A DNA stretch of 64,000 nt. Origin: Thermococcus profundus (GTDB lineage Archaea; Methanobacteriota_B; Thermococci; Thermococcales; Thermococcaceae). The notes under the pieces are model-generated. The model was not told where the DNA came from. It was given only the letters and a program-made list of their open reading frames with translations, and searched no databases. Every line of letters starts with the position of its first letter. The first letter of the stretch is position 1. Position numbers and translations under genes: made by a program. Positions 1,075 to 47,898 of the stretch are shown here, in pieces. The DNA lies in contig NZ_CP014862.1 in the NCBI RefSeq assembly GCF_002214585.1, positions 1,054,001 to 1,118,000 of the forward strand, written 5' to 3'.

Positions 1075-3936
1075 TCAGGAGAAGAGCCCAGTGATCGTGC
1101 TCTCCTCCTCCACGGCCTTTTTCACCTTCAGCTCCATTCCGAAGGCGTTAGTAACGGTGCCCTCCTTGGCGGCCCAGAGGCCTGCGGGAAGGACCAGGAC
1201 GTCTCCCCTCAGCTCCTTCTCGGCCCTTCCAACCACGACGTAGGCCCTGCTCTCCGGAATTCCCGTTACACCCGCCTTGATGAGTCCGGCGGCGTTCACT
1301 CCCTCGTGGAGGATCAGCGTCGGGACGTCGAGCGGCTCAGCCGGCCCCTCAAGTATCGCGACATCGTAGCCCTCCTCAACCATCTCCTTGCCCTTCAGGA
1401 GTATTTTGAGGAGCGGGTACTTTTCGGGGTCTGCCTTCAGGAGGACGCGCCTTGCCTTTCTGACCTCCTCAAGGGTGGCCGTTGAGAGCCCGCCCTCAAC
1501 TGTTGAACCTATAGGAATGCCACGCTTCTCAGCGAACTCCTTGAAGAAGGTTATCTCCTCATTTGTCAGTTCCGGCGTAAGGATGAGTGCGTAGTCGTTC
1601 TCCTCCATGAACCTCTTGGCTTCCTCCCAGCTCACGGACTTTCCGTTGAGGAGTGGCTGGATTAAATCCTCTGCCCAGGGTCTGGCGAAGCGGCAGAGGT
1701 CGCAGAGGTGTTTGTTCCAGCTATCCTCTGCCCTCGAAGCCCTAACGAGCATGCCGTCGTAGACCTCTATGTTCATCTCGCAGGCGAAGGAACAGCCGTT
1801 GCAGACGGTTTTGATGGGGGTGGTCTTCCACGGGCCGGGCTTGACGAAAGGCAACCTCTCCGTTATCGCTCCAACGGGACAGACGTCTATGGTCTCACCG
1901 ATAAAGAGCCCTTCAACGTCCCCCAGCGTCTCGCCGAGGGGCGGCGAAATCCTCGTCTTGAAGCCGCGGAAGAGGTAGTCGAGGACTCCCTCACCGGCAA
2001 CGTCGTGGGTAAAGCGAACGCACTGGCCGCAGAGGACGCACTTGTTGTTGTCGAGGACAACGAACGAGTGGCTCTCGTCGATCTCAAACTTGTTCTGCTC
2101 ACCCCCGAAAGTATCCTGCTCCGCGTTGTAGAGCGTGGCATACTCCCTCAGCTTGCACCTGAAGACCTCCATACAGCCGCAGCTCATGCACCTCTTGGCC
2201 TCTTCAAGAACCTGCTCCTCAGTTAGGGAAGGCTCGACCTCCTCGAAGTTCCCCTTCCTGATTTCGGGATCGAGGAGCTCCACCCTCGCCCTCGGTTTTC
2301 TCTCAACGCCCTCGTAGTCCTTCTCCGTGACCTTCTTCCAGTGGTTGTAGGGCCTCAGGTCGAAGAGCACGCGGTAAAGGTCATCGTCGGCCAGAACTTT
2401 CTCGATGTGCTTCTCGGGCTCAAGCAGAACTTCCCTAGCCTTCTCAAGCTTGCCCTTGAGGTAGAGGTCTATCATCAAAGCGGCTCTTCTCCCCGTGGCG
2501 ATGCTCTCTATGACCGTTGAAGGCCCGAGGACGAGGTCTCCGCCGGCGAAGACACCCGGAATGCTAGTCTGAAGGGTTACCTCATCAACAACGGCCCTCC
2601 CGCGCTTCGCCTCTATGCCGAGACCCCTGAGGAAGTCCTCGTCGCAGTACTGGCCTATCGCCAGGATGACGTTGTCGGCCTTAACGCGGAACTCTGAACC
2701 CTCTATCGGTATCGGCCTCCTCCTGTCGCTTGCGTCCGGCTCTCCGAGGTGCATTTTTATTAGCTCGACTTCCTCAACTTTGCCGTCTCCGAGTATTCTG
2801 ACCGGGTTCGTGAGGAAGAGGAACTCGACGCCCTCCTCGATTGCCTCCTCAACTTCCCTCGGGTTGGCCGGCATCTCCGCCCTGGAGCGGCGGTAGACGA
2901 CGGTAACCTTAGCTCCAAGCCTCAAAGCCGTCCTCGCGACGTCCATGGCAGTGTTCCCGCCGCCGACTACTATAACGCGCTCGCCGAGCTCAACCTTCTC
3001 GCCGGTGTTGACCCTCCTGAGGAACTCTATGCCGTGCATCACTCCACCAAGCTCCTCTCCTGGAATGCCCATCCTCCTGCTCCTCCAGGCCCCGACGCCG
3101 AGGAAGACGGCATCGTACTCCTCACGGAGCTCCTCAAGGGTAACGTCCCTCCCGAGGGCGGTGTTAGTCTTCACTTCAATGCCAGTGCCGATGACGGTCG
3201 CTATGTCCCTGTCGAGGACGTCCCTCGGGAGCCTATAGGGCGGGATTCCGTAGCGCATCATGCCGCCCAGCTTCGGCATGGCCTCGATTATCGTTACCTC
3301 GTGGCCCATAGTGCGAAGGTAGTAGGCACAGGCAAGGCCAGCTGGCCCACCGCCAACCACTGCTACCCTCTTTCCGGTCGAAGGGGGAATCTCGGGCATC
3401 CACGGGCCGTGCTCAAGGTCGTAATCAGCGGCAAAGCGCTTGAGCTGTCTTATCGCTAAAGGCTCGTCAACTAGGTTCCTCCTGCAGGCCTCCTCACAGA
3501 AGGCAGGGCAGACCCTCCCGAGAACCGCCGGGAGAATGTACTTCTCCTTCATCAGCTTCACAGCCTCGTGGTACTTGCCCATCGCTATCAACGCAAGGTA
3601 CCCCTGAACGTCGCTGTGGGCGGGACACGCGTCCTGGCACGGCCCTATACAGTCGCCGTAGTGGTCTGAGAGGATCAGTTCAAGGGCAGTCTTCCTCATC
3701 GAGATAACTTCTTTGCTCAAGGTCTCGACGGAAAGCCCTTCCATCGGTTTGAGGGTACAGGATGTCGTTACTCCCCTCGGCGTGCTAACAAGGCAAAGCC
3801 TACAGGAGCCGTAGGGGTCGAGCTCCTCGCTGTAGCAGAAGCCCGGAACGTGCTCCCCAATTTCCCTGAGAAACTCTATGAGGGGCTTTCCATCGGGAAC
3901 CTCCGTTTCCTTACCGTTGAGGATAATCTTGACCAT
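1075..3936 (-). CDS. Multidomain 2Fe2S / GltD-like FAD-NAD(P)H / NuoG-like iron-sulfur oxidoreductase
   Basis: The 953-residue protein is a fusion. Residues 1-75 are a 2Fe2S ferredoxin domain (Cys about 34, 45, 48, 60). A glutamate-synthase small-subunit-like part follows, with cysteine-rich CIGPCQDACPAH, two Rossmann motifs (VVGGGPAGLACAYYL, VVGGGNTAMDVA) and IPGVFAGGD. A NuoG/formate-dehydrogenase-like tail has CVLCGQC and a CNGCSFAC...CDLC cluster-binding module, but no full molybdopterin domain. Such fusions pair with NuoE/NuoF proteins in electron-bifurcating NAD(P)H:ferredoxin enzymes (Nfn/Bfu type; family recalled, not searched). The ATG at 3936 shares one base with the stop of the upstream gene (TGATG), so translation is coupled. 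Substrate is inferred, not shown. Confidence 0.82.
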   Translation of the reverse strand: MVKIILNGKETEVPDGKPLIEFLREIGEHVPGFCYSEELDPYGSCRLCLVSTPRGVTTSCTLKPMEGLSVETLSKEVISMRKTALELILSDHYGDCIGPCQDACPAHSDVQGYLALIAMGKYHEAVKLMKEKYILPAVLGRVCPAFCEEACRRNLVDEPLAIRQLKRFAADYDLEHGPWMPEIPPSTGKRVAVVGGGPAGLACAYYLRTMGHEVTIIEAMPKLGGMMRYGIPPYRLPRDVLDRDIATVIGTGIEVKTNTALGRDVTLEELREEYDAVFLGVGAWRSRRMGIPGEELGGVMHGIEFLRRVNTGEKVELGERVIVVGGGNTAMDVARTALRLGAKVTVVYRRSRAEMPANPREVEEAIEEGVEFLFLTNPVRILGDGKVEEVELIKMHLGEPDASDRRRPIPIEGSEFRVKADNVILAIGQYCDEDFLRGLGIEAKRGRAVVDEVTLQTSIPGVFAGGDLVLGPSTVIESIATGRRAALMIDLYLKGKLEKAREVLLEPEKHIEKVLADDDLYRVLFDLRPYNHWKKVTEKDYEGVERKPRARVELLDPEIRKGNFEEVEPSLTEEQVLEEAKRCMSCGCMEVFRCKLREYATLYNAEQDTFGGEQNKFEIDESHSFVVLDNNKCVLCGQCVRFTHDVAGEGVLDYLFRGFKTRISPPLGETLGDVEGLFIGETIDVCPVGAITERLPFVKPGPWKTTPIKTVCNGCSFACEMNIEVYDGMLVRASRAEDSWNKHLCDLCRFARPWAEDLIQPLLNGKSVSWEEAKRFMEENDYALILTPELTNEEITFFKEFAEKRGIPIGSTVEGGLSTATLEEVRKARRVLLKADPEKYPLLKILLKGKEMVEEGYDVAILEGPAEPLDVPTLILHEGVNAAGLIKAGVTGIPESRAYVVVGRAEKELRGDVLVLPAGLWAAKEGTVTNAFGMELKVKKAVEEESTITGLFS

Positions 3937-5738
3937 CACTCATCCCTCCCGGTGAGGATCTCTATAGCGTTGAACCGGCACACCTCGTAGCAGGTGCCGC
4001 ACTTGATACACGCCTCTTGGTCAATGAAGTGGGGCTTGAGCCTCTCGCCGCTGATAGCTTTGACCGGGCAGAATATCGCGCAGGCGGTACAGCCGGTACA
4101 CTTGTCGGCGATTATGACGTACCTTATGAGCGGCTTGCAGACCTTTGCCGGACAGCGGCCGTTTATGTGCTCGATGTATTCTTCCCTGAAGTAGCGGAGC
4201 GTCGTTAGGACGGGGTTTGGAGCCGTCTGCCCGAGCCCGCAGAGCGAGCCGGCCTTAACCTGGTAGGCGAGCCTCTCAAGCTTTTCAAGATCCTCCTCGG
4301 TCGCCTCTCCCCTCGTGAACTTGTCAAGGATTTCCCACATCCTCTTGGTGCCTATGCGGCAGAAGGTACACTTGCCGCAGGATTCCTTAACCGTGAAGTC
4401 GAGGAAGAACTTGGCAACGTCGACCATACAGGTGTCCTCGTCCATGACGACCATTCCGCCGCTGCCCATTATAGCTCCCGTCGCGTTCACGCTCTCGTAG
4501 TCAACGGGAGTGTCAAAGAGCTCTTCCGGAATACAGCCGCCCGAAGGGCCGCCGAGCTGGACAGCCTTGATCCTCTTGCCCGTCTTCGTCCCCCCGCCGA
4601 TCTCGTAGAGTATCTCGCGGAGCGTTATTCCCATCGGAACCTCAACGTTGCCGCCGTGCTTTATCTTGCCCGACAGCGCGAAGACCTTGGTGCCTTTGCT
4701 CTTTTCCGTTCCAAGGGAGGCGTAAGCTTCCCAGCCGTGCCTTATTATCCAGGGCACGTTCGCCCATGTTTCCACGTTGTTTATGTTGGTCGGCTTTCCG
4801 AAGAGCCCCTTCTGGGCGGGGTAGGGCGGCCTTGGCCTCGGCATGCCGCGCTTTCCTTCAATCGAGGCTATGAGTGCCGTCTCCTCACCACAGACAAACG
4901 CCCCGGCACCCTCTTTGATGACTATGTCAAAGGAGAACCCGCTACCGAGGATGTTCTCGCCGAGGAAGCCCCTCTCCCTCGCCTGCTGGAGGGCTATCTT
5001 CAGCCTTCTTATGGCCAGCGGGTACTCTGCTCTCACGTAGATGAAGCCCTTTGTAGCCCCGATCGCGTAGGCACCTATTATCATACCCTCGATAACTCTG
5101 TGAGGGTCGCCCTCAAGGACGTTCCTGTCCATGAACGCTCCGGGGTCGCCCTCATCGGCGTTGCAGACTATGTACTTCTCGTCCCCCTTTGCTTGGCGGG
5201 TGAACTTCCACTTCAGACCAGTTGGGAATCCCGCACCGCCTCTACCCCTGAGGCCCGATTTGGTGATTACCTCTATTATCTCCTCGGGCTCCATCTTGAG
5301 GGCCTTTTTGAGGGCCTCGTAACCGCCAACGGCTATGTACTCGTCTATGTTCTCGGGATCTATGTAGCCGGAGTTTTCGAGGACGATCTTCTTCTGCTTG
5401 GCAAAATAGCCATCAACGTCCCACGTCTTTCTCTCGCCGTTCTCCCACCAGTCGCGCTTGACTACCCACTCCTCCACCGGTTTTCCGTTGATGACGTGCT
5501 CCTCTATGATCCTCGGGACTTTCTTCGGGTCAACGTGACCGTAGGTAATGATCCCGTCCCCTGTGATTACGTCAACCAGCGGCTCTCGGTAGCACATGCC
5601 GACGCAGCCGACTATCTTGAGCTTGATGTCTAGCTCCCTCTCCTCAAGTTCCCTCTTTATCGCCTCGTAGGTCTCCTTTGCCCCGGCCGCTATTCCGCAC
5701 GAGTTCATGCCGACCGCTATGGCCTTGACCTCAGACAT
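3936..5738 (-). CDS. NuoF/HydB-like flavin oxidoreductase subunit
   Basis: This 600-residue protein has the order of bifurcating-type NuoF/HydB subunits. An N-terminal thioredoxin-like 2Fe2S domain (residues 1-100, NSCG and VGCVGMC cysteines) precedes the FMN/NADH domain (GRGGAGFP, GAGAFVCGEETA). Then come a SLBB region, the N3-type 4Fe4S motif SCGKCTFCRIGT with distal SLCGLGQ, and a C-terminal two-cluster ferredoxin domain (CTGCTACAIFCP, CIKCGTCYEVC). It should bind NAD(P)H and pass electrons between FMN and ferredoxin. It overlaps the NuoE-like gene by 8 bases and shares a base with the downstream fusion gene, so the three subunits are coupled. Confidence 0.9.
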   Translation of the reverse strand: MSEVKAIAVGMNSCGIAAGAKETYEAIKRELEERELDIKLKIVGCVGMCYREPLVDVITGDGIITYGHVDPKKVPRIIEEHVINGKPVEEWVVKRDWWENGERKTWDVDGYFAKQKKIVLENSGYIDPENIDEYIAVGGYEALKKALKMEPEEIIEVITKSGLRGRGGAGFPTGLKWKFTRQAKGDEKYIVCNADEGDPGAFMDRNVLEGDPHRVIEGMIIGAYAIGATKGFIYVRAEYPLAIRRLKIALQQARERGFLGENILGSGFSFDIVIKEGAGAFVCGEETALIASIEGKRGMPRPRPPYPAQKGLFGKPTNINNVETWANVPWIIRHGWEAYASLGTEKSKGTKVFALSGKIKHGGNVEVPMGITLREILYEIGGGTKTGKRIKAVQLGGPSGGCIPEELFDTPVDYESVNATGAIMGSGGMVVMDEDTCMVDVAKFFLDFTVKESCGKCTFCRIGTKRMWEILDKFTRGEATEEDLEKLERLAYQVKAGSLCGLGQTAPNPVLTTLRYFREEYIEHINGRCPAKVCKPLIRYVIIADKCTGCTACAIFCPVKAISGERLKPHFIDQEACIKCGTCYEVCRFNAIEILTGRDE

Positions 5739-6195
5739 CGAGCTTCCCCTCCCTGAGCTGCTTCATCAGCTTCCTCACCTTCTCCGGATTGAGCTTGCCG
5801 AAGACCTTCTCATTGATCATTATGACCGGCGCGAGGCTGCAGCAGCCGAGACAGGCGACGCGCTCAAGCGTGACAAGGCCGTCCTCCGTCGTCTGGCCCT
5901 CCTCTATGCCGAGCTCCTCCTTTATGGATCTGGCTATGTTGACAGCTCCGTTGACGTGGCAAGCAGTGCCGTGGCAGATTTTGACGACGTACTTCCCGAG
6001 CGGCTCGAAGCGGAACTGGGCGTAGAAGGTCGCGACACCGTAAACCCAGCTGAGTGGAAGCCCAAGGTAGTTCGCTATCTCCTCCATAGCCTCCCGGGGG
6101 AGGTATCCAAAGCGCTCCTGCGTGCGCTGGAGGAGCGGAATAAGCGAGCTCGGCTCTGGGGGATAAGAGCGTATGTAGCCGAAATCAGACGCCAT
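5731..6195 (-). CDS. NuoE-like 2Fe2S subunit
   Basis: The 154-residue product is a thioredoxin-like 2Fe2S protein of the NuoE/HydC family: a helical N-terminus, then cysteine pairs in CHGTACHVNGA and CLGCCSLAPVI that ligate one cluster. It is the first gene of the leftward operon and should shuttle electrons to the NuoF-like partner. A GTG at 6207 gives 158 residues, but GGTGAGG at 6198-6204 fits the ATG at 6195 better. A TATA-like TTTTATAAAC lies at 6241-6250 and the SurR tandem site is just upstream of that. Confidence 0.9.
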   Translation of the reverse strand: MASDFGYIRSYPPEPSSLIPLLQRTQERFGYLPREAMEEIANYLGLPLSWVYGVATFYAQFRFEPLGKYVVKICHGTACHVNGAVNIARSIKEELGIEEGQTTEDGLVTLERVACLGCCSLAPVIMINEKVFGKLNPEKVRKLMKQLREGKLDV

Positions 6196-6250: not shown

Positions 6251-6266
6251 GTGCACTAAAGTACAA

Positions 6267-6297
6267 GTTTGTAACATTTGGTTCAGAACCATTTGTT
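6267..6297. promoter_or_regulatory. Tandem SurR binding site between two divergent redox operons
   Basis: Two full extended SurR motifs GTTn3AACn5GTT overlap by one half-site: GTTTGTAACATTTGGTT at 6267-6283 and GTTCAGAACCATTTGTT at 6281-6297. SurR is known to activate hydrogenase promoters in Pyrococcus furiosus when elemental sulfur is absent. Here the site lies between TATA-like elements of the leftward oxidoreductase operon (6241-6250) and the rightward hydrogenase operon (candidates 6306-6314 or 6320-6330). It could therefore control both. A surR gene is present at 47116-47832. Confidence 0.8.
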
Positions 6298-6362
6298 TGG
6301 AAAATCCTTAAATCGGTGCTTTACAAATATCAAGTATAAGGGCCTATACGGCGGTGGTGCCA

Positions 6363-7367
6363 TTGAGATATATAAAACTTCCTTCCGAAAATTTTGAGAC
6401 CTTCTTCAATTCGCTTAGGGAGTGGGGCAAAATCTATGGGCCAGTTAAGAAGGGGGAGGTTTATTCTTTCCAGGAGGTTCAGGGGGCCGGGGACATGGCC
6501 CTCGACTACAACAGGACAATGCTACCGCCGAAGAAGTTCTTCGTGAGACCAAGGGACCAGATACTCCACCTAAAGAACGGTAGATGGGAAAACGGTGTCG
6601 ATGATGAAAGGTTCGTTCTCTTCGGCCTCCACTCCTGCGACATCCACGGCCTTAAGATACTCGACAAGGTGTACCTTGGAGAACCGGCCGACCCATACTA
6701 CAAGGCAAGGCGCAAGAACGCACTCATAATTGGGATAAGCTGCATGCCCGACGAGTACTGCTTCTGCAAGAGCCTGGGAACCGACTTTGCCATGGACGGC
6801 TTTGACCTCTTCCTCCACGAGCTTCCGGATGGATGGCTCGTTCGCGTGGGGAGCGTGAGGGGGCATGAAATAGCCTGGGAGAACGAGGAACTCTTTGACG
6901 AGGTCACCGAGGAGGACATCCAGCACTTCAAGGAGTTCGAGGAGAGGCGCGCTTCTTCATTCCAGAGAAAGCTCAGCAAAGAAGGTTTGGCAGACATGCT
7001 TGACCTGGCCTACAACAGTCCCGTATGGAAGAAGTACGCGGACATATGCCTCGCCTGCGGCAACTGCAACATGGTTTGCCCCACTTGCCGCTGTTACGAG
7101 GTGTGTGACAAATGGATCAACGCCTACGAGGCTGTGAGGGAGAGGCGCTACGATTCCTGCTTCATGGAGAGCCATGGTCTCGTTGCCGGCGGCCACAACT
7201 TCAGGCCTACGCGATTGGACCGCTTCAGGCACCGCTACTACTGCAAGAGCTACTTCGACCCCTCAGCGGGCTTCAACTGCGTCGGCTGTGGGAGGTGTGA
7301 CGAGTTCTGTCCGGCCGGGATAGAGCACGTTAAGGTTCTCGACGAGGTGAGGGGGTCCCTGCAATGA
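6363..7367 (+). CDS. hydB: Sulfhydrogenase beta subunit (iron-sulfur electron transfer)
   Basis: The 334-residue product matches the beta subunit of Thermococcales soluble hydrogenase/sulfhydrogenase (FrhB/AsrA-like). A cysteine-rich middle region (CMPDEYCFC) is followed by two 4Fe4S motifs, CLACGNCNMVCPTC and CVGCGRCDEFCPA, near the C-terminus. It carries electrons between the gamma flavoprotein and the delta/alpha hydrogenase module in the cytosol. GGTGGTG at 6353-6359 favours the TTG at 6363, giving MRYIKLP; GTGs at 6354 and 6357 are alternatives. The shorter length than the SHI beta subunit suggests the SHII type, from memory. Its stop overlaps hydG by ATGA. Confidence 0.88.
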   Translation: MRYIKLPSENFETFFNSLREWGKIYGPVKKGEVYSFQEVQGAGDMALDYNRTMLPPKKFFVRPRDQILHLKNGRWENGVDDERFVLFGLHSCDIHGLKILDKVYLGEPADPYYKARRKNALIIGISCMPDEYCFCKSLGTDFAMDGFDLFLHELPDGWLVRVGSVRGHEIAWENEELFDEVTEEDIQHFKEFEERRASSFQRKLSKEGLADMLDLAYNSPVWKKYADICLACGNCNMVCPTCRCYEVCDKWINAYEAVRERRYDSCFMESHGLVAGGHNFRPTRLDRFRHRYYCKSYFDPSAGFNCVGCGRCDEFCPAGIEHVKVLDEVRGSLQ

Positions 7368-8239
7368 GCGAAAACCCCTACGTTTCCCATGAGGCGCGCA
7401 TTCTGGAGGTAAAAGACTTAACTCCCAGGGAGAAGCTCTTCACCCTCCGCTTCGTTGACCCAGAGGTGGGAGAAAACTTCAACTTCAAGCCGGGCCAGTT
7501 TGTCATAGTGGACGTTCGGGGCTTCGGCGAGTTCCCGATAAGCCTCTGCTCATCCCCAACCAGGAAAGGCTACATCCAGCTCTGCATAAGGAAAGCCGGC
7601 AGGATGACGAAGTTCGTCCATAAAATGCGGGAGGGGGAGATAGTTGGCATTAGGGGGCCCTACGGCAACGACTTCCCAATGGAAGAGATGGAGGACTCAA
7701 ACCTCGTTCTTGTCGCTGGCGGCCTCGGGATGGCGCCCCTGAGGTCAGTCCTGTGGTATGCCATTGACTCAGGGAGATATGAACAGATCTGGCTCTTCTA
7801 CGGGACTAAGGCCTACGAAGACCTGCTCTTCCGCGACGAGGTAGTCCACCTACTAAAGCATGGGGATGCCGTGAACTGCAAAGTGAAGCTCGCCTACGAG
7901 GTTGAGAGTCCCTCGTGCGTCTACCTTGAGAAGGGCTTCTCGGACAGGGTTTGCCGGGGCGTTGTGACGGACCTCTTCCGCGGTGAGGAGTTCGACGTTG
8001 AGAACACCTACGCCCTCATCTGCGGCCCTCCGATAATGTACAAGTTCGTAGTGAGGGAGCTCCTGAACAGGAAACTCTCTCCCGGGAGGATTTACATGAC
8101 CCTTGAAAGGAGAATGCGGTGCGGAATAGGCAAGTGCGGCCACTGCGTTGTTGGGACGAGCACGAGTCTCAAGTACGTCTGCAAAGACGGACCTGTCTTC
8201 ACCTATTGGGACGCGCTCTCCACAAGGGGGTTGATATGA
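7364..8239 (+). CDS. hydG: Sulfhydrogenase gamma subunit (FAD/NAD(P)H-binding)
   Basis: A 291-residue ferredoxin-NADP reductase-type flavoprotein. The FAD-binding barrel contains FPISLCSSP, and the nucleotide domain has VAGGLGMAPLRSV and ICGPPIMY. A C-terminal 2Fe2S motif (MRCGIGKCGHC...C) is typical of the PyrK/HydG family. It exchanges electrons with NAD(P)H and passes them to HydB. It starts in an ATGA overlap with hydB and ends overlapping hydD by four bases, so the operon is translationally coupled. Confidence 0.92.
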   Translation: MSENPYVSHEARILEVKDLTPREKLFTLRFVDPEVGENFNFKPGQFVIVDVRGFGEFPISLCSSPTRKGYIQLCIRKAGRMTKFVHKMREGEIVGIRGPYGNDFPMEEMEDSNLVLVAGGLGMAPLRSVLWYAIDSGRYEQIWLFYGTKAYEDLLFRDEVVHLLKHGDAVNCKVKLAYEVESPSCVYLEKGFSDRVCRGVVTDLFRGEEFDVENTYALICGPPIMYKFVVRELLNRKLSPGRIYMTLERRMRCGIGKCGHCVVGTSTSLKYVCKDGPVFTYWDALSTRGLI

Positions 8240-8976
8240 TGGGGAAGCTCAAACTCGGAGTTTTCGAGCTGACGGACTGCGGAGGCTGTGCCCTCAACGT
8301 GCTTTTCCTCTACGAGAGGCTCTTCGACCTCCTGGAGTACTACGAGATAGGCGAGTTCCACATGGCGAGCAGCCTTCAAGATGGTGGCCATTACGACGTT
8401 GCCCTCGTTACAGGAACGGTTTCCACCCACAGGGATCTCGAAGTTCTCAGGGAAGCGAGAAACCGCTCGGACTACCTCATAGCCCTCGGGACCTGCGCGA
8501 CACATGGCAGCGTGCAGGGAAGTGTTGAAATGCCGATTAAAGAGAAGCTGAAAGCGATTTACGGAGATGAGGGCAACCCGATGCGGGCGATGGACTCGAA
8601 GCCGGTCGTCGAGTACGTGGCCGTGGATTTGGCAATTCCTGGCTGTCCCTACGACAAGGAGGAGCTGTACCAGGCGCTCATGAACATAGCGAAGGGCATA
8701 GATCCGGTTCGTCCAGACTACCCCGTCTGCGTCGAGTGCAAGCTCAACGAGTACGAGTGTGTTCTGGTGAAGAAGGGCCTCCCATGCCTCGGCCCGATAA
8801 CCCTAGGCGGCTGCAACGCGGTCTGCATAAAGTCCGGTCTCGGCTGTATCGGCTGCAGGGGCCCACTGCCGGGCGAGGTGAATCCAGCGAGCGAGTACGA
8901 GATACTCAAGAGCAAGGGCTACGATGACGAGTACATCATGAAGAAGTTCAAGACCTTCGCGAGGTGGAAGCCATGA
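8236..8976 (+). CDS. hydD: Sulfhydrogenase delta subunit ([NiFe]-hydrogenase small subunit)
   Basis: The 246-residue protein is a hydrogenase small subunit without signal peptide, hence cytosolic. ELTDCGGCALNV and GTCATHGSVQ, with GCPYDKEEL, supply the proximal cluster ligands. A cysteine-rich C-terminal half (CVECKLNEYEC, CLGPITLGGC, CIGCRGP) should hold further 4Fe4S clusters. It relays electrons between HydB and the NiFe site of HydA. The start is ATG 8236 (ATGATG), with GGGGG upstream; ATG 8239 is equally possible. Its 3' end overlaps hydA by ATGA. Confidence 0.92.
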   Translation: MMGKLKLGVFELTDCGGCALNVLFLYERLFDLLEYYEIGEFHMASSLQDGGHYDVALVTGTVSTHRDLEVLREARNRSDYLIALGTCATHGSVQGSVEMPIKEKLKAIYGDEGNPMRAMDSKPVVEYVAVDLAIPGCPYDKEELYQALMNIAKGIDPVRPDYPVCVECKLNEYECVLVKKGLPCLGPITLGGCNAVCIKSGLGCIGCRGPLPGEVNPASEYEILKSKGYDDEYIMKKFKTFARWKP

Positions 8977-10220
8977 TAATCGAGATTGGGGAGTTCACCC
9001 GTGTAGAGGGGAACGGGAAGGCCGAGATAATCATAGAGGACGGCGAAGTGAAGGACGTGAGACTGAAGATCGTTGAGGGGCCGCGCTTCTTCGAACTCCT
9101 CACTCTCGGGAGGCACTACTACGATGTACCAGACCTTGAGGCGAGGATATGCGCCATATGCTATCTCGCCCACAGTGTCGCATCGGTCATGGGGATAGAG
9201 AGGGCCTTCGGAGTTGAGGTTCCGGAGGAGATTCAGCTGTTAAGGGAGCTTGGTCTCATCGGGGAGTTCCTTGAGAGCCACGCATTGCACCTTTACCTCC
9301 TCGTCGCCCCTGATGTCTTCGGCTATCCCGATGCCATTAGGATGGCAAGCAAGCACGGCGAGCTTGTGAAGGAAGGGATAGCACTCAAAGCCTTCGGGAA
9401 CAGATTGAGGGAGCTGATAGGCGGGAGGGAGATAGGCGGGATAAACGTCAAGCCAGGTGGCTTCGGGCGTTATCAGACTACTGAAGAGCTTGAGACAATT
9501 GAGGAAGAAAGTGGGGCTCTGCTGAGGCTCGCTAAAAGGGCTGTGAGGCTCTTCGCGTCGCTTGAGCCCTACGGCGAAAGGGCGGAGCACTTCGTAGCCA
9601 CCAACGGCTACCTGTGGGGAGAGAGACTGATCGCCGAGGACAAGGAACCGTTCCACTACACCGAGAGAATAGAGGAGCACTCCCTCGTTTACAGCTTCGC
9701 CAAGCAGAGTTGCTACAACGGCGAGAGCTTCCTCGTTGGTTCCCTCGCAAGGCTCCTGCTAAAGAGCGATCAGCTGACGCCGGAGGCGAAGAGGCTCTTC
9801 AAGGAGCACGAAGATAAGCTTTCAACGGGATACGTCAGCTACAACAACCTTGCCCAGGCTATCGAGCTAGTTTACTCCCTTGAGCGGGCAGGAGAGATAG
9901 CGAAGATTCTCCTCGACCGCGGCATCTCCGGCGAAAACGTTCCAGTGGAGCCGAGGGAAGGGGAAGGAATAGGGTACGTTGAGGCACCGAGGGGAGTTCT
10001 GATACACCACTACCGCACCGATTCCAAGGGCAGAATCGTGCACTCGAACATCATAACGCCAACGGCGCTCAACCACGCCATGATTGAGGAGAGCCTGCTG
10101 AAGGAGGCTAGGGTTCTCTACGGTGAGGCCGATGAGGAGGAGATGATAGGCAGACTGGAGGAGACGGTAAGGGCCTTCGACCCATGCATATCCTGCTCGG
10201 TTCACATAGTGAAGCTTTGA
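8973..10220 (+). CDS. hydA: Sulfhydrogenase alpha subunit ([NiFe]-hydrogenase large subunit)
   Basis: A 415-residue NiFe large subunit. The four active-site cysteines are in RICAICYLAHS (C60, C63) and DPCISCSVH (C405, C408). The last four residues, IVKL after H411, form the tail expected to be removed by the maturation protease, here encoded at 599-1045. It catalyses H2 formation or uptake with NAD(P)H, and in homologues also sulfur reduction. GAGGTGG six bases before ATG 8973 sets the start. A T-rich run follows the stop. Confidence 0.94.
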   Translation: MIIEIGEFTRVEGNGKAEIIIEDGEVKDVRLKIVEGPRFFELLTLGRHYYDVPDLEARICAICYLAHSVASVMGIERAFGVEVPEEIQLLRELGLIGEFLESHALHLYLLVAPDVFGYPDAIRMASKHGELVKEGIALKAFGNRLRELIGGREIGGINVKPGGFGRYQTTEELETIEEESGALLRLAKRAVRLFASLEPYGERAEHFVATNGYLWGERLIAEDKEPFHYTERIEEHSLVYSFAKQSCYNGESFLVGSLARLLLKSDQLTPEAKRLFKEHEDKLSTGYVSYNNLAQAIELVYSLERAGEIAKILLDRGISGENVPVEPREGEGIGYVEAPRGVLIHHYRTDSKGRIVHSNIITPTALNHAMIEESLLKEARVLYGEADEEEMIGRLEETVRAFDPCISCSVHIVKL

Positions 10221-12898: not shown

Positions 12899-13178
12899 TC
12901 AACCCAGAATTTTCACTTAGTTCTCGTTCCCAGCTGGGGGAGTCTCTGACTCTCTGGGGAGTAGATGAATTCGATGGTAGAGTCCGAGGATGGAATGTAT
13001 TGACAAGATTCAAAATTTATTCTTAATTTTATCAAGTTTTATGGGTTTTTCCGGAACTTATTTATAGAAAAAACGCGTATTTTATCTAGTAAAATCATGA
13101 TCTCCGATTCCTTTTCTTCTTGAGTCGGAGATCCCAGTTCATTGAATTTTAATCATCTCCGCATTGGGAGGTAGGGAG
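12899..13178 (+). promoter_or_regulatory. Promoter and structured 5' leader of the giant surface protein
   Basis: No gene is visible in this AT-rich gap. ACTTATTTATAG near 13057-13068 is a likely TATA box. A 6-bp inverted repeat (ATTTTA/TAAAAT, 13079-13095) and a perfect 9-bp inverted repeat GATCTCCGA/TCGGAGATC (13099-13107 and 13125-13133) lie downstream of it, so the second would form a hairpin in the mRNA leader. A strong GGGAGGTAGGGAG ribosome site precedes ATG 13179. Confidence 0.55.
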
Positions 13179-16100
13179 ATGAGGCGAGAAAAATTCGTCT
13201 CCTGCTTGTTTTTGGTTATCGTTCTAGCGTCCAGCCTCCAGGTTCTAAACTACGACCGGGCAGGTGCTTTTCCAGTGGTGCACAACGTCAACACGGGCGA
13301 GATTTTTCAGAGCATACAGGAAGCAATAGACGACCCTGAAACCAAAGACGGGCACGTCATCGAGCTCGATCCAGGAAATTACAGGGAGAGCGTGGTCGTC
13401 AGCAAAGGGGTGATCATACGCTCCGCATCGGGAAACCCGGAGGATGTCATCATAGAGACCTCCGAGCCAGGGGTTCCGGTATTCAGGATTACCCACGACA
13501 ACGCGGCCATAAAAGCCGTCACCCTCACAGGAGCCAAGAAAAGCGGGACTTACGCGGTGGTAGTTGAGAAAAAGGTATACAACTGCCAGATCATCAACGT
13601 CAGGATATTCTCAAGCTACGGAGGAATTTACCTCGACGAAGGGGGAGCTAACCACAGGGTAGCTATGGGCTACTTTGAGAGCGTCGCCATTCCAGTAACC
13701 CTCAACTCCGTCTCGACCACCGAGGTCTCCATGAACTTCATGAAGGGTCCCGATAGGGGGGTTGTGCTGCTGTCATCAAGCAGAAACTCCATCACAAACA
13801 ACACCATAACAGACCCAATCTACAACGGCATCCTGCTGAGAGACGGCTCGGCCGTCAACGACGTAAGCGGGAACGCCATTTCAGGCAGTCAGGGGGACGG
13901 GATAATGCTCTACGCGAGCCACAACAACACTATCGAGTCCAACAACCTGACCCAGAACGTTCGTGGGCTTGAGATAGTCGGAGGGAGTCAGGGGAACATC
14001 GTCAGGGACAACTTCATCACCGGGAACGACCTTGGGGTCTACATCGCTGACACTAACGGAAACCTGCTCTACAACAACTACCTCTCGAACGGCCAAAACG
14101 CCCGGGACATGGGAGAGAACTACTGGAACACCACGAAGAGGGATGGCCCAAACATAGTGGGCGGCCCCTACATAGGCGGCAACTACTGGAGCGACTACGG
14201 GGGAGTTGACAAGGACGGCGACGGGATAGGCGACACAGAGGTTCCCCACATCTCCGGTGGGGGCGTGAGAACCGGGGACTGGCTTCCCCTCGTCAAGACG
14301 AGGCCCGAAGGGGGCCTTCCGGACTTGATTGTAACGGACATCTGGAAAGAGGGCGGAAAGCTCTGGTTCCAGGTGAGGAACGTCGGAGATGGTGACTCAG
14401 GCCCCTTCGATGTGGCCCTCCTCCTAAACGGTGAACCCGTGAAAACTCTCAGCGTTGAAGGCCTCAAGGCCGGGGAGTTCAGGGATGGAAGCTTCGACCT
14501 GCCCGAATGCCACGAGGGAGTTCTGAATGTAGGCGTGTGGGCAGATTCAGGCGGAAAAGTCCACGAGGGCGACGAGGAGAACAACGCCCGCCTTGAGGAG
14601 TGGAAGTGCGACGAGGAGCCGCCGAGGATAGTTGGCCTGAAGGTGGTGGAGGTCGGAAGGGACTACGCGGTTATCTTCGTCGGCACGAGCGAGGAGAGCA
14701 GGGTAAAGGTGAAGTACAGCCCGGACACGCTCCCAAGCGAGGTTGTCGACGACGAACTCAAGGAGAAGCACGTCATAAGGCTTGAAGGATTGCAATCGGG
14801 AACGCTCTACTGGTTCATTGCGGAGGTCTCGGACGGGAGTGGAAACTCGGCCGTCTCCGAAAAGGCCTTCTTCAAGACGCTACCGGTTCCGGACGGAGAA
14901 AAGCCGACTGTTGAGCACCTAACGCTCCCCATGAGACCAGGAAAGCCGCTTAGGGCTTACGTGAGCGACAACACCGGTGTTGACAGGGTGGAGTTCTACG
15001 TGGACGGAAGGCTTGTGGGGGTTGACTACTCCCCGGGGAACTTCTCCATGATGTACCTCACCCCCGGAATCCTCGGGATGGCCGGGATTGGTGGGGAGAA
15101 CTACTACACGGAACACGAGGTCATGGTGAGGGTGTGCGACATTAGTGGACTGTGTGACAACATAACCGAGGTATGGAGGCCCTCCTACGATGTCCAGAGC
15201 GTTGAAGTGGAAGTCGTTTCCCCGCCCGACCGCTACACGATGAGCACCATCCAGGCGAACAGCACGGGAAGCGTTGAGGTGAGCGTTTACGCCGCTGAAT
15301 ACGAGCTATCCATGAGGGACTGCCCCTCCTCGGAGCTGGGCCAGCTCATGTGCCTCAACAGCCCGGGAGAGCTCATCCCCCATCCAGTTGACAGCCTAAC
15401 CCTCTACATATTCGGGCCAGAGGACTACGAGGTTAAGAGGGTTTTCTACCCCCACACGGACGAAGACACCACCTTCACCTACGAGTGGGACGTGAGGAAC
15501 CTCGAGCCTGGGCTGTATCTCATAGCGGCCATGGCCAACTCAACCAACGGGGAGAGCTACTTCTCAAGGGCTGTAACGGTCGAGATAGCTTCCCCCCGGA
15601 AGGAGTACTCCTTCCACCAGGAGGTCAGGAGGGTTGGAAACTACTTCAACGTCACGCTAAGCGTTAGGAACACGGGGGAGGTCCCCATAAGATTAAACGA
15701 AATAACGGAGACCCTAAAGGGCTTCCAGGCTGTTGTCAAGGACGGAGCCGGCTACACCATGAGGGGGCGCTACTACGTGGAAGGGCAGTATGAAGAGGTC
15801 ACCTTCAGCTTCAACAACACCATCCTCGAGCCGGGGGAAATGGCGAGGGCGAGCTACCTTGCGGTTCCCATTCTGTATTCCCATACGGTCTACAGGGGAA
15901 TCGGTGTACCCGTTGTGGTCGAGGTTGATGGAGACCTGGAGACCTTCCACCCATCCCAGACCGTAAGGGGTGAAGGGGGTCTCGAGGGCATATACGATGC
16001 CGCGATAAACGCAATGAGGCAGAGCGACTACCTCATAGTCACGAACCCCGAGAACCTATACTATACAAACGAAAACACAAGCAATGTCCAGAAGGTTTTC

Positions 16101-19100
16101 TCGGCGATGGCGGAACTGGCCACCCTCCGGAACGGCGTTATAGGCTACCTCGGGGGAGGGGGAAAGATAAGGAAAGACGTTAAGAAGGCGCTCATAGCAA
16201 TCGGCGACCCCAACGGAGATGGAAAGGGCGACATCGTGATATACCATCCCGACAGCGGAAAGCTCGTAGTTCACAGCCTCCTGGGCGGTGAAGAGAGCGC
16301 AGAGCTGGCGAAAGGAGCTGGAGGGTTAGCCCTTCACGACCTCGACGATGACGGAAAGGACGAGATAATCCTTGCCGGGGAGTACGGGTTCGTGAAGGTG
16401 TACGGCAAGGAGCGGGTTAGGGACAAAAACGGGAACCAGAAGGAGAAGTACGTGGAAGAGAGCTATTCCCCCAATACAAGAGCGGAAGGGCAAGCGGACG
16501 TTGCCTGCGGGTACGTTTATGGGTCAACGATATTCGACGTGTACCCCACCTGCGCGGTGCTGGACGGCTCCCACGTGTACCTGATAACATCCAGTCTCCA
16601 GGAACCCATTCGGCTTCTCTCTGGTGAACATGACATTGGAACGGACAGAGGTAAGAGGGTCTTCTTTGCCGACGTGGGCGGCGACAAGGGAGACAGTCTG
16701 CTCGTCCTGCTCTCAACGGGGGAGCTCAGGGAGTACTACATCATAGCCGATTCGCTGGAGCTTCGGAGAACAATCCAGGTTCCCTACTCAGACGACAACG
16801 GCTACGCCACAGGCGACATAGACGGCGATGGAATGGATGAGTTCGTTGTCTTTGATGCGGAAAACAATAAGATTGAAGTCTACACAATGGACGGCCTTGA
16901 GGAGGAAGTCCCCTTCTACTTTGGAACAACCCATGAGATTTCCATAGGGTCCGGAAGCATGGCCACCCCAATATCCGCCTACGTCGGGAGCGTTATCATG
17001 GGCGGTATCAGGATTGGAAACGTCCTTCCCGGAAGGGGCGAGGAAATAATCTTCCCCAGCTCCGACGGTGAGTGGCTGGAATTCCACACATGGGACGAGC
17101 TTCAAAACTTTGAGCCGCTGTCCTTCACGCTCATACAGGAGTGGAGCAACTACCTCACGGACGGCTGGCTCGACCACGGCTACCTCGTCATAGTGGGCGA
17201 GACGGAGATAGTGCCGGCGCTTAAGGCGAGCTACAACCCGATATGGCTCGACTGGGGTAGGGTGAAGGTCATCAGGACAACCGACGTCCCCTACGCCAAC
17301 ACCGAGGGAGACGTCCTTGACCCCGAGCTGATAGTTGCGAGGTTCCCGGGAAACAAGGCGGGCGACATACTCAAGGGCATGGAGAACGCCATAGCCGTGG
17401 CGAGGGGGGAGTGCTCCTTCGACCGCTCCCACGCGCTCATACTATCGGGATGGCCCGAGTCGAGGGGCGGCGGCTCAGATCATATTGACTTCTATGAGAC
17501 CAGCCTTGCGGTTTACAGGGCACTTAGAGATCAGGGCACCAATGTGGCGATTCTTAGAAGCACCCAGTACCCGGACGAGGAAGTGAACAGCCGTAAAGTA
17601 TCACACAGGGAAGACGTCGTGAACGCTTTCTTCACCATTGCCCGCGAGAGGGACATAATACACCTCGAGGGACACGGAAACTGGAACGTGATAGATGATC
17701 TCTACGTCAGTGACTTCTCGGGAAGGGCGGAACCCTTCGGCGGAACCTGTCCCTTCGTTTACGCGGAGTCCTGCCTGACAGGGGACTACACGAAGGGGAA
17801 GAGCGTGGCCGAGGCATTCCTCCAGGCCGGGGCGGCCGTCTACCTGGGATCAACTGAACTTGTCTGGAGTGCACCGTGGACGGCAAGGGCCAAGAGGCTC
17901 TACCGGAAGTGGGACTCCGGAGAAAGCATAGGCATGGCCCTCAGGGAGCTGAAGAGGGAGATGGGAGGCTGGGAACTTGAAGACGATACGGACATGGTAT
18001 GGGTGCTTGAGATGCACCTCTACGGCGACCCCAAGCTTGGATTGGGAGTATCCACACCAGAGGAGAGGAGAAACTCGGGAACCCCGAAGAGCCTGGAGTT
18101 GCAGACTCCGGAGTACAGCATAGAGAGGACGGACGAAGGTGATGTGATGAGCATCGAGGACGGCTCCTACGTGGAAGTGCCCGGCAACCCCCTGCTCCCC
18201 TACTACACCTACACCCTCAATGTTCCTGCCGGGAGCAGGGTAACAAGTGTGAGACTTGTGGAGAAGGAGGTCAGGGAGAGGGTGCCCCTAAACCCGGCCA
18301 TCGCGAGGATCGGAAGGCTCGGAGGGGAGGCAACATCCAACTCCACCACCGTTAACCTCACCCTTCCGGACTACAGGTGGCGCATCATCGAGAACCCCGA
18401 TGGCAGCACAACGCTCGTCATAAAGGTGTTCCCCGTCAAGTACAACGAGCTCACCGGAGAGGCTACGATCTACGGCTCCCACCGCTTCGAGATATCCTAT
18501 GTCGAGACCGGGGTGAGGCTTGAATCCTTGGTGCTCAGCGGGGAGAGGATAAAGCGCGGGGATACCATCAAAGCGGGCCTCATCCTCACGAACAGGGAAA
18601 GGGACGACGTTGTATTAACCGCGAGGATCAGAAAGGCTTCGGACAACTCCGTGGCCTTCGAAGCTCCGGCGAGGCTCCTCGAAGGCTTCGGCGGCGTCGG
18701 AAGGTTCTCGATGGAGTTCGGCACGGAGGGCCTTGAGGGAGGGGAGTACTACGTTGAGATGGAGGTGAGGGATAAGGGAGGAAACGTCCTCGACAGGAAG
18801 ACTGCCTACTTCAGCGTGAGCTTTGCCGAGCTGGTGGTGAGCCTGTATCCAGCAGGGGAGCTCTCTCCGGGGGAGGAGTTCACGGGCGTGATGGAGATAA
18901 CCAACGTAGGTGACCTTCCGGTTAGCGGAAGCGCGCACATAACCTCTTCCGAGGGGGAGGAACTTGTCAGGAACGTGACGGTGATGCCCGGCCAGAGGGT
19001 AACCGTGGAGGGAACCTTTACTGCCGGAAAGGAGTGGGCTAACCTAACCGGCTACGTCCTGTACGATGGAACGATGAGCGAGCCAGCTTACTTCTCGCTC

Positions 19101-19331
19101 TCCTTTGCAAAGCCCGAAGAAGAAAAGCCGCCTGAGACTACCACAACAGCCCCATCCTCCACGTCATCTCCTTCACCATCGCCAACAAGTTCATCAACGA
19201 CTCCCCCTGAGGAGAGCCCCTCAACAACCCCAGGGACACCGGGGCCCACGATCCCCGGAGGGATGATGAGGATTGCCGCACTGCTCCTCGGAGCCCTTGT
19301 CCTCTTCGCCATCCTCCTGAAGAGGAGGTGA
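13179..19331 (+). CDS. Giant surface-anchored protein with beta-helix, CARDB, FG-GAP-like and gingipain-type (C25) peptidase domains
   Basis: A 2050-residue exported protein. In order: signal peptide (1-30); NosD-like parallel beta-helix (about 85-365); CARDB-type domain (380-477); fibronectin III-like domain (478-570); further Ig-like domains; Asp-rich FG-GAP/VCBS-like repeats (DPNGDGKGD, DLDDDGKDE, DIDGDGMDE; about 1005-1240). The C25 peptidase region is about 1320-1625, with His 1499 in LEGHGNWN and Cys 1532 in YAESCLTG as the likely catalytic pair. More beta-sandwich domains, a Ser/Thr/Pro linker (1977-2027) and a final membrane helix ending KRR follow. It is probably a cell-surface cysteine protease. 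ATG 13179 is chosen for its ribosome site; the in-frame TTG at 13164 is rejected. Confidence 0.85.
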   Translation: MRREKFVSCLFLVIVLASSLQVLNYDRAGAFPVVHNVNTGEIFQSIQEAIDDPETKDGHVIELDPGNYRESVVVSKGVIIRSASGNPEDVIIETSEPGVPVFRITHDNAAIKAVTLTGAKKSGTYAVVVEKKVYNCQIINVRIFSSYGGIYLDEGGANHRVAMGYFESVAIPVTLNSVSTTEVSMNFMKGPDRGVVLLSSSRNSITNNTITDPIYNGILLRDGSAVNDVSGNAISGSQGDGIMLYASHNNTIESNNLTQNVRGLEIVGGSQGNIVRDNFITGNDLGVYIADTNGNLLYNNYLSNGQNARDMGENYWNTTKRDGPNIVGGPYIGGNYWSDYGGVDKDGDGIGDTEVPHISGGGVRTGDWLPLVKTRPEGGLPDLIVTDIWKEGGKLWFQVRNVGDGDSGPFDVALLLNGEPVKTLSVEGLKAGEFRDGSFDLPECHEGVLNVGVWADSGGKVHEGDEENNARLEEWKCDEEPPRIVGLKVVEVGRDYAVIFVGTSEESRVKVKYSPDTLPSEVVDDELKEKHVIRLEGLQSGTLYWFIAEVSDGSGNSAVSEKAFFKTLPVPDGEKPTVEHLTLPMRPGKPLRAYVSDNTGVDRVEFYVDGRLVGVDYSPGNFSMMYLTPGILGMAGIGGENYYTEHEVMVRVCDISGLCDNITEVWRPSYDVQSVEVEVVSPPDRYTMSTIQANSTGSVEVSVYAAEYELSMRDCPSSELGQLMCLNSPGELIPHPVDSLTLYIFGPEDYEVKRVFYPHTDEDTTFTYEWDVRNLEPGLYLIAAMANSTNGESYFSRAVTVEIASPRKEYSFHQEVRRVGNYFNVTLSVRNTGEVPIRLNEITETLKGFQAVVKDGAGYTMRGRYYVEGQYEEVTFSFNNTILEPGEMARASYLAVPILYSHTVYRGIGVPVVVEVDGDLETFHPSQTVRGEGGLEGIYDAAINAMRQSDYLIVTNPENLYYTNENTSNVQKVFSAMAELATLRNGVIGYLGGGGKIRKDVKKALIAIGDPNGDGKGDIVIYHPDSGKLVVHSLLGGEESAELAKGAGGLALHDLDDDGKDEIILAGEYGFVKVYGKERVRDKNGNQKEKYVEESYSPNTRAEGQADVACGYVYGSTIFDVYPTCAVLDGSHVYLITSSLQEPIRLLSGEHDIGTDRGKRVFFADVGGDKGDSLLVLLSTGELREYYIIADSLELRRTIQVPYSDDNGYATGDIDGDGMDEFVVFDAENNKIEVYTMDGLEEEVPFYFGTTHEISIGSGSMATPISAYVGSVIMGGIRIGNVLPGRGEEIIFPSSDGEWLEFHTWDELQNFEPLSFTLIQEWSNYLTDGWLDHGYLVIVGETEIVPALKASYNPIWLDWGRVKVIRTTDVPYANTEGDVLDPELIVARFPGNKAGDILKGMENAIAVARGECSFDRSHALILSGWPESRGGGSDHIDFYETSLAVYRALRDQGTNVAILRSTQYPDEEVNSRKVSHREDVVNAFFTIARERDIIHLEGHGNWNVIDDLYVSDFSGRAEPFGGTCPFVYAESCLTGDYTKGKSVAEAFLQAGAAVYLGSTELVWSAPWTARAKRLYRKWDSGESIGMALRELKREMGGWELEDDTDMVWVLEMHLYGDPKLGLGVSTPEERRNSGTPKSLELQTPEYSIERTDEGDVMSIEDGSYVEVPGNPLLPYYTYTLNVPAGSRVTSVRLVEKEVRERVPLNPAIARIGRLGGEATSNSTTVNLTLPDYRWRIIENPDGSTTLVIKVFPVKYNELTGEATIYGSHRFEISYVETGVRLESLVLSGERIKRGDTIKAGLILTNRERDDVVLTARIRKASDNSVAFEAPARLLEGFGGVGRFSMEFGTEGLEGGEYYVEMEVRDKGGNVLDRKTAYFSVSFAELVVSLYPAGELSPGEEFTGVMEITNVGDLPVSGSAHITSSEGEELVRNVTVMPGQRVTVEGTFTAGKEWANLTGYVLYDGTMSEPAYFSLSFAKPEEEKPPETTTTAPSSTSSPSPSPTSSSTTPPEESPSTTPGTPGPTIPGGMMRIAALLLGALVLFAILLKRR

Positions 19332-46932: not shown

Positions 46933-47132
46933 TCTTTCACCTCCAGGGGTTCAGCGCTGAGCGCTCCAACGGGGCATGCGTTGATGCATATCCTGCAGCT
47001 TATGCACTTGTCCTGGAAGAACTCCCAGCCGCTCGAGTGGACTTCAATGGCGAGGGTCGGGCAAACACCGGCACAGCCGCCGCAGAGGTAGCACTTATCC
47101 TCGTTGACTACGACTCTAATCTTCTCCGGCAT
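46929..47132 (-). CDS. Ferredoxin, 2x[4Fe-4S]
   Basis: A 67-residue ferredoxin with [12 protein letters not shown] and [12 protein letters not shown] motifs. It is the middle gene of the surR-ferredoxin-reductase operon and probably donates electrons to the lipid reductase downstream. GGTGA five bases before ATG 47132 sets the start, within the 3' end of surR; GTG 47141 is an alternative. Confidence 0.9.
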
Positions 47133-47832
47133 TGGTTTCACCGCCGTTCCTTTGTTTCAGCCTTTCTTCGTCGATTTTAATGAGGCCGTCTTTTATTATT
47201 AACGGTACGAATCTGTCCAGTTCCTGGGCCTTCACGAGAACTTCCCTCTCCTTGAGGTTGAGCCTGTCGGAGAGCTCGTCTACAGTTGCTTCCCCTGTGA
47301 GAAGGACGTAGTGGAGAATGGCCAGTTGCGTCATGTCGCCGATCTCACTGAGGTAGGTCTCTTTGATCCTCGCCATCAGTCTGTCCCTCTTGTGCTCGAT
47401 GCTCTGCAGGAGCGAGAGAACTTTGTTGAGCTCCCTGGTCAGCCCCAGGAACGCTTCTATCTGGGAGTGGAGGTCCTCAATCTCAACGTCAAAAGAAGAG
47501 ACGTCAACCGTGGCCCTCTCAAGCGAGCCTCCGTCGAGGTCGAGCCCAGTGTACCAGAACACGTTGGGGGTTATCGTTGTTACGAACGTTTTTGATATGT
47601 TTATCTCGTAGTACTTTCTGGCGGGGCCGATGAAGGGCCCTTCCCTCTCGTAGGAGCGGAGGATTCCTTCTCTCTCCATGATCTTGAGGTGCTTGGCAAC
47701 GGCGGTCGAAGAAACGCTAACTTTGTTGCTCAAGAAGCTGAAATAGCACTCGGTACAAGTCAGATGGCTTAAAAGGTCTCGGCGGACCTTGTTTCCCAGG
47801 ATGTAAAACACGTCCGGTCCTGTCTCAGGCAT
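47116..47832 (-). CDS. surR: Redox-responsive transcription regulator SurR
   Basis: The 238-residue ArsR-type winged-helix protein matches Pyrococcus SurR as remembered: FYILGNKVRRDLLSHLTCTEC, then SVSSTAVAKHLKIMEREG. The redox switch is C26xxC29; oxidation by sulfur releases DNA. Reduced SurR activates hydrogenase genes and represses sulfur-reduction genes at GTTn3AAC. Its own promoter carries an exact extended site (47882-47898) next to the TATA box. ATG 47832 fits the family N-terminus; the frame start at 47844 does not. Confidence 0.93.
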   Translation of the reverse strand: MPETGPDVFYILGNKVRRDLLSHLTCTECYFSFLSNKVSVSSTAVAKHLKIMEREGILRSYEREGPFIGPARKYYEINISKTFVTTITPNVFWYTGLDLDGGSLERATVDVSSFDVEIEDLHSQIEAFLGLTRELNKVLSLLQSIEHKRDRLMARIKETYLSEIGDMTQLAILHYVLLTGEATVDELSDRLNLKEREVLVKAQELDRFVPLIIKDGLIKIDEERLKQRNGGETNAGED

Positions 47833-47881
47833 GACCCACACCACCCAAATCTGTGACGTAAAGCTTATATAGTGAACATTT

Positions 47882-47898
47882 AACCTTAGGTTGCAAAC
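47882..47898 (-). promoter_or_regulatory. SurR site between surR and pdo
   Basis: The minus strand reads GTTTGCAACCTAAGGTT, an exact GTTn3AACn5GTT. It lies just upstream of the surR TATA-like CTATATAAGC (about 47867-47876) and about 40 bases before the pdo TATA-like GTTATAAAC. Autoregulation of surR and control of pdo are both likely. Confidence 0.82.

Follow-up and report, generated by a model that had tools for sequence, protein, structure and literature searches.

A putative SurR operator array shared by divergent NfnABC transhydrogenase and sulfhydrogenase II operons in Thermococcus profundus

Can one array of regulator sites set the expression of a hydrogenase and of a transhydrogenase together? 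This question is raised by a 31-bp intergenic sequence (positions 6267-6297) within the 64,000-nt stretch of Thermococcus profundus DNA that was analyzed as a whole, hereafter "the window," where it separates two divergent operons. In Thermococcales, the SurR regulon is marked by the motif GTTn3AAC or, in its long form, GTTn3AACn5GTT (Lipscomb 2009, 2017, as cited in PMC12162507 and PMC8595942), and an earlier inspection of the letters alone, the sequence-only reading, had proposed that such motifs at this place switch both operons on together when sulfur is absent.

The identity of the two operons was borne out on both sides, i.e., a bifurcating-type oxidoreductase on the left and a hydrogenase on the right. 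All three left-hand products match the solved NfnABC (PDB 9n5u) over their length, with the nfnC product scoring 272 bits, and we assign nfnCBA as a predicted NfnABC, a bifurcating-type NADH/ferredoxin:NADP transhydrogenase of the Bfu family. The same full-length match relates it to the Nfn-Bfu enzyme of T. sibiricus, for which activity was demonstrated and which reduced ferredoxin with NADPH solely in the presence of NAD+ (PMC9304861). On the right, the reading frames of shyB, shyC, shyD, and shyA overlap, and all four products pass the curated NCBIfam equivalog cut-offs for sulfhydrogenase II (SHII), with scores/cut-offs of 708/690, 628/600, 478/460, and 773/700 bits, respectively. The gene starts proposed earlier, at 6195 and 6363, agree with ribosome-binding sites; among relatives, a TTG or ATG is conserved in place of the TTG at 6363. 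Both operons belong to a cluster of ~15 kb that comprises a sulfhydrogenase I operon, a HycI-type maturation protease, nfnCBA, and sulfhydrogenase II, and that extends beyond nfn over positions 557-1045 of the window and G000:C1:1048966-1053042, just outside it.

Besides NfnABC, the T. profundus genome encodes two NfnSL pairs. Both of them matched 5vj7, which we take to be the non-bifurcating Pyrococcus paralogue (Xfn/NfnII), better than NfnI (5jca), and because of this fit the genome appears to lack NfnI. Such a gene content is in line with the either/or distribution described in the Bfu-family paper, according to which Thermococcaceae carry either the NfnABC type or an unrelated NfnAB, and never both (PMC9304861). 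NfnABC and NfnSL are nonetheless not wholly unrelated, NfnA having a GltD-like domain that is 44-46% identical to NfnL.

The 31 bp of the array (GTTTGTAACATTTGGTTCAGAACCATTTGTT) follow the pattern GTTn3AACn5GTTn3AACn5GTT and thus hold five half-sites in the order GTT-AAC-GTT-AAC-GTT. As the sequence-only reading had it, two long motifs on the plus strand are exact (6267-6283, GTTTGTAACATTTGGTT, and 6281-6297, GTTCAGAACCATTTGTT) and have the GTT at 6281-6283 in common. The count of two had to be revised, however: because the two GTTn3AAC palindromes stand 5 bp apart, a further exact long motif runs on the minus strand from 6289 to 6273, which makes three overlapping motifs. We counted 4 long motifs in the window versus 0.29 expected, and 31 in the whole genome versus 5 for a reversed-pattern control, the genome-wide position statistics being based on pattern counts. 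A first-order Markov model of the intergenic region produced at least two long motifs in 0.018% of simulations, and from its composition this region should hold the exact 31-bp array 4.6e-7 times. Across 94 genomes of the family, we found 56 exact copies of the array versus 12 for the reversed control, 37 of these 56 at the shy/nfn locus.

Table 1. Coordinates of the genes and regulatory elements discussed in the text (positions in the window).
Feature	Position	Strand	Basis or remark
nfnA, 2Fe-2S + GltD-like NADP/FAD domain + partial NuoG/Fdh-like	1075..3939	-	9n5u chain A, 1789 bits
nfnB, NuoF-like, BfuB-type core subunit	3936..5738	-	9n5u chain B, 1254 bits
nfnC, NuoE-like, 2Fe-2S; start ATG 6195	5731..6195	-	PDB 9n5u chain C (NfnC), RBS
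TATA box of nfnCBA, TTTATAAA	6242..6249	-	sequence + conservation
Conserved element GTGCACTAAAGTACA, between operator and nfn TATA box of NfnABC loci	6251..6265	.	conserved; single exact genomic copy
Putative degenerate mirror-image sixth half-site, CTT on minus strand	6259..6261	-	CTT in 44/44 NfnABC loci
Putative SurR operator array, five half-sites	6267..6297	.	exact motif match + family-wide conservation at locus
Palindrome 1, GTTTGTAAC, nfn-side putative SurR dimer site	6267..6275	.	17 bp from nfn TATA box
Palindrome 2, GTTCAGAAC, shy-side putative SurR dimer site	6281..6289	.	17 bp from shy TATA box
Fifth half-site GTT, long-motif extension, beside shy BRE	6295..6297	+	in all intact SHII loci read
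TATA box of shyBCDA, CTTAAATC, A-rich BRE before it	6307..6314	+	sequence + conservation
shyB, sulfhydrogenase II beta; start TTG 6363	6363..7367	+	NCBIfam profile
shyC, sulfhydrogenase II gamma	7364..8239	+	NCBIfam profile
shyD, sulfhydrogenase II delta	8236..8976	+	NCBIfam profile
shyA, sulfhydrogenase II alpha (NiFe)	8964..10220	+	NCBIfam profile
surR, regulator, CTEC redox motif	47116..47844	-	NF047699, 391 bits (cut-off 250); PDB 2qlz, PF0095
Long SurR motif in surR/pdo intergenic region	47882..47898	-	exact motif

The array is flanked by the two divergent TATA boxes, as had been proposed, and it lies upstream of BRE/TATA at both promoters, where the boxes were called from sequence and conservation rather than from mapped transcription starts. 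The arrangement is that of a mirror: a dyad at 6278 is the common center of the TATA pair and of the palindrome pair. The mirror is broken farther out, where the right side carries the fifth half-site GTT and the matching left position reads CTT, which we infer to act as a degenerate sixth half-site. In NfnABC loci, palindrome 1 does not overlap the BRE/TATA of nfn, and the nfn promoter lacks an A-rich BRE; the position that such a BRE usually takes is occupied by GTGCACTAAAGTACA. On the minus strand, this element reads TGTACTTTAGTGCAC (6251-6265), with a near 10-bp direct repeat that extends into the TATA box. As an operator common to many genes, GTGCACTAAAGTACA was ruled out by its single exact copy in the genome.

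Conservation extends this picture to the family. Most of the 94 Thermococcaceae genomes contain a shyB of the SHII type, and at loci where the upstream sequence reaches the neighboring gene, the divergent neighbor is always nfn, be it nfnCBA or nfnSL. The nfn TATA box is offset by 17 bp in 44/44 NfnABC-type loci, and so is the shy TATA box in all 39 NfnABC loci that retain SHII. The array is conserved above background: half-site columns were 100% identical versus 59% for the array spacers and 54% for the farther left flank in 31 loci, a set selected for the exact array, the unselected evidence being a half-site table. The third and fifth half-sites are invariant in nearly all loci, and an AAC-to-CAC change is confined to the fourth one (in NfnABC loci of genera g4 and g2 and in one of g1). 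NfnSL loci carry one palindrome only, or lack the first or the fourth half-site, with a variable spacing to the nfn TATA box; in loci of the T. barophilus type, one exact palindrome suffices. The two korarchaeal SHII relatives (L169 and L170, Candidatus Methanodesulfokora; 68-71% ShyB identity) lack the array as well as an upstream Nfn, and these two loci speak against a spread of the operator together with SHII outside Thermococcales. Their ShyB similarity suggests a transfer to or from Thermococcales.

Whether the array also serves the transhydrogenase can be judged from five genomes in which NfnABC occurs and SHII is no longer intact (G018, which holds a pseudogene remnant, G024, G027, G049, and G057; G003, a sixth, was left out for its incomplete assembly and divergent NfnB). 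The shy TATA box is gone from its place in 5/5 of these genomes, and in the same five the exact array keeps its 17-bp distance to the nfn TATA box, palindrome 2 and the fifth half-site included. Because they lost the shy TATA box yet retain all five half-sites, the array serves nfn as well, and it is maintained for nfn even without shy, although some of the SHII losses look recent. The earlier proposal that the array is common to both operons therefore gains from two sides, i.e., the conserved 17-bp spacing to either promoter and the retention for nfn alone, and we regard the 31 bp as a putative SurR-type operator common to the divergent nfnCBA and shyBCDA. In a separate genome (G076; L153 832-1706), a transposase-like insertion splits shyB from the operator and removes the ShyB start, and nfnCBA retains the array.

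The regulator itself, SurR, is encoded inside the window (47116-47844) by a gene that carries the CxxC pair and is divergent from pdo; exact motifs and the surR gene together agree with the call of a SurR-type operator. Further long motifs of this genome are located at an Mrp/mbh-type operon and at a second Mrp operon, as well as at an NSR-type CoA-disulfide reductase, at hypA, and at both NfnSL pairs, a predicted set that resembles the known SurR regulon (PMC12162507, PMC8595942). With that regulon, the nfn/shy locus shares the exact motif, the presence of the regulator, an activator-type position upstream of TATA, and hydrogenase and Nfn targets; it differs in its tandem array of five half-sites and in the mirror geometry to two promoters. 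An identical 31-bp five-half-site architecture occurs at the mbh promoter of the same genome (C1:306375-306405), although next to genes other than nfn/shy. In three other genomes (G041, G068, and G069; loci L116, L114, and L115), the same 31-bp array with its five half-sites separates a sulfhydrogenase I operon from a divergent mbh operon, so that hydrogenase genes facing away from each other would share an array here, too.

The enzyme facing the hydrogenase appears to have been exchanged repeatedly. Mapped onto a tree of 62 ShyB sequences, the NfnABC/NfnSL label requires about nine changes, at least seven of them forced by well-supported branches, and it follows that the operator was retained as the enzyme next to it changed. 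Near-identical ShyB proteins with different partners were found in two pairs of genomes: in G077/G074, DNA identity stays above 90% over the operator and shyB but breaks down at the nfn promoter, and in G084/G079, it starts dropping within the operator. Chimeric binning cannot account for all partner swaps because some of the genomes are single-contig assemblies. In g4, the NfnSL loci hold a remnant of the NfnABC promoter (ATATACTTTA or similar), which suggests that NfnABC was replaced by NfnSL there. On balance, we lean toward the notion that the SurR operator beside shyB is a fixed regulatory socket, behind which the differently built three-subunit NfnABC and two-subunit NfnSL have been exchanged many times with breakpoints just past the operator, the operator staying with the hydrogenase operon.

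How would such an array act on its two promoters? According to a published rule, SurR activates without sulfur from sites that lie upstream of BRE/TATA and represses from sites that overlap BRE/TATA, and because both palindromes are in the activator position by this rule, the two operons would be activated together. When elemental sulfur is absent, reduced SurR dimers would occupy the two palindromes, which lie 14 bp apart, and with a palindrome in the activating position 17 bp upstream of each TATA box, one bound array would promote transcription in both directions. Sulfur would oxidize the CxxC pair of SurR, upon which the array would be vacated and both promoters would return to their basal level, such that the capacities of the hydrogenase (H2/NADPH) and of the NADH/ferredoxin/NADPH transhydrogenase would be set jointly. 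We think that this shared activation of nfnCBA and shyBCDA without sulfur is probably correct, where SurR occupancy, cooperative filling of the array, and activation are our inferred steps, with activation least certain for nfn. For the hydrogenase, sulfur is known to lower SHII in both T. onnurineus and P. furiosus; for NfnABC-type organisms, no sulfur-response data were found in the literature searched.

The array might instead work as an either/or switch, on which SurR activates shy while the transhydrogenase is repressed or barely responds. Data from T. onnurineus, the sole expression data found for the homologous locus, point in this direction, since in its proteome SHII gamma (TON_0054) was detected only without sulfur and SuDH I/NfnI (TON_0057) only on sulfur, and so does the T. 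piezophilus paper, whose authors group Nfn with the SurR-repressed genes (PMC8595942), as well as the SurR motifs near the starts of the other NfnSL genes in the T. profundus genome. The T. onnurineus locus is, however, of the NfnSL type, and because both its enzyme and its left promoter geometry are different, these data do not directly refute joint activation at NfnABC loci. Palindrome 1 at NfnABC loci, moreover, precedes the nfn TATA box by 17 bp and stays clear of BRE/TATA, as the mirror image of the activated shy promoter, and we consider an either/or switch unlikely. Against joint activation also speak deep-sea strains, in which some targets are regulated independently of SurR despite their motifs, and the nfn promoter itself, where an A-rich BRE is missing and the additional conserved element could belong to another factor. 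Upon mutation of surR in T. barophilus, SHII expression was lower at 40 MPa with sulfur, yet 18-fold up at 70 MPa.

Two independent, merely adjacent SurR sites would equally give each promoter a single palindrome at the same distance, with each operon relying on its own palindrome and no shared function, and the T. barophilus-type loci do manage with a single one. But palindrome 2 and the fifth half-site remain intact where SHII and the shy TATA box are lost, and it is the third and fifth half-sites that are invariant in nearly all loci, so that separate sites strike us as somewhat less likely again than an either/or switch. The strong conservation of GTGCACTAAAGTACA in NfnABC loci could hint at an operator for mainly another regulator, e.g., one that reads this element, with the SurR-like letters incidental. 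Against this speak the absence of the element from most NfnSL loci that bear the array, its single genomic copy, and the fact that the invariant letters are the SurR half-sites, which render it very improbable. Chance resemblance draws on GTTn3AAC being short and frequent (18 occurrences in the window versus 11.7 expected), but the minute expectation for the array in this region and a position conserved in dozens of species leave it practically no weight; with the Markov simulations, these justify the earlier judgment that chance is very unlikely. Joint activation through a shared operator thus remains our preferred reading.

Parts of this picture are already published for relatives, namely SurR control of SHII and, in T. 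piezophilus, one long motif each at SHII and at its neighbor NfnI. The T. piezophilus locus (PMC8595942, Table 2) is alike in its adjacent operons with a long motif for both (69 and 72 bp) and differs in its two-gene NfnI, as opposed to the three-subunit NfnABC and the complete first palindrome of T. profundus. For T. barophilus, the published table gives one long motif for SHII versus the tandem array here, and the retrieved passages of PMC9304861 do not discuss SurR control of the T. sibiricus Nfn-Bfu. Neither the tandem mirror array with its constant spacing, nor the persistence of the array once SHII is lost, nor the repeated in-place partner exchange was found in the SurR literature searched, a comparison that did not include the main 2017 SurR paper. 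With two mirror-image palindromes, each equidistant from its own TATA box, the locus would represent a precise architecture for bidirectional control in archaea, and it would tie the swapping of two kinds of transhydrogenase to a hydrogenase, with one redox-sensing regulator over them. Natural variants, which have either enzyme beside SHII or nfn alone, allow testing the H2/NADPH/ferredoxin balance as one SurR unit.

Elsewhere in the window, Rfam and tRNA scans gave a CRISPR array as their sole find, with 30 recognized repeats near surR/pdo (50751-52801, minus strand, Rfam CRISPR-DR6). Positions 13164-19331 encode a predicted surface protein of 2055 aa, whose C-terminal stalk, rich in Thr/Ser/Pro, and membrane anchor at the terminus were judged by eye.
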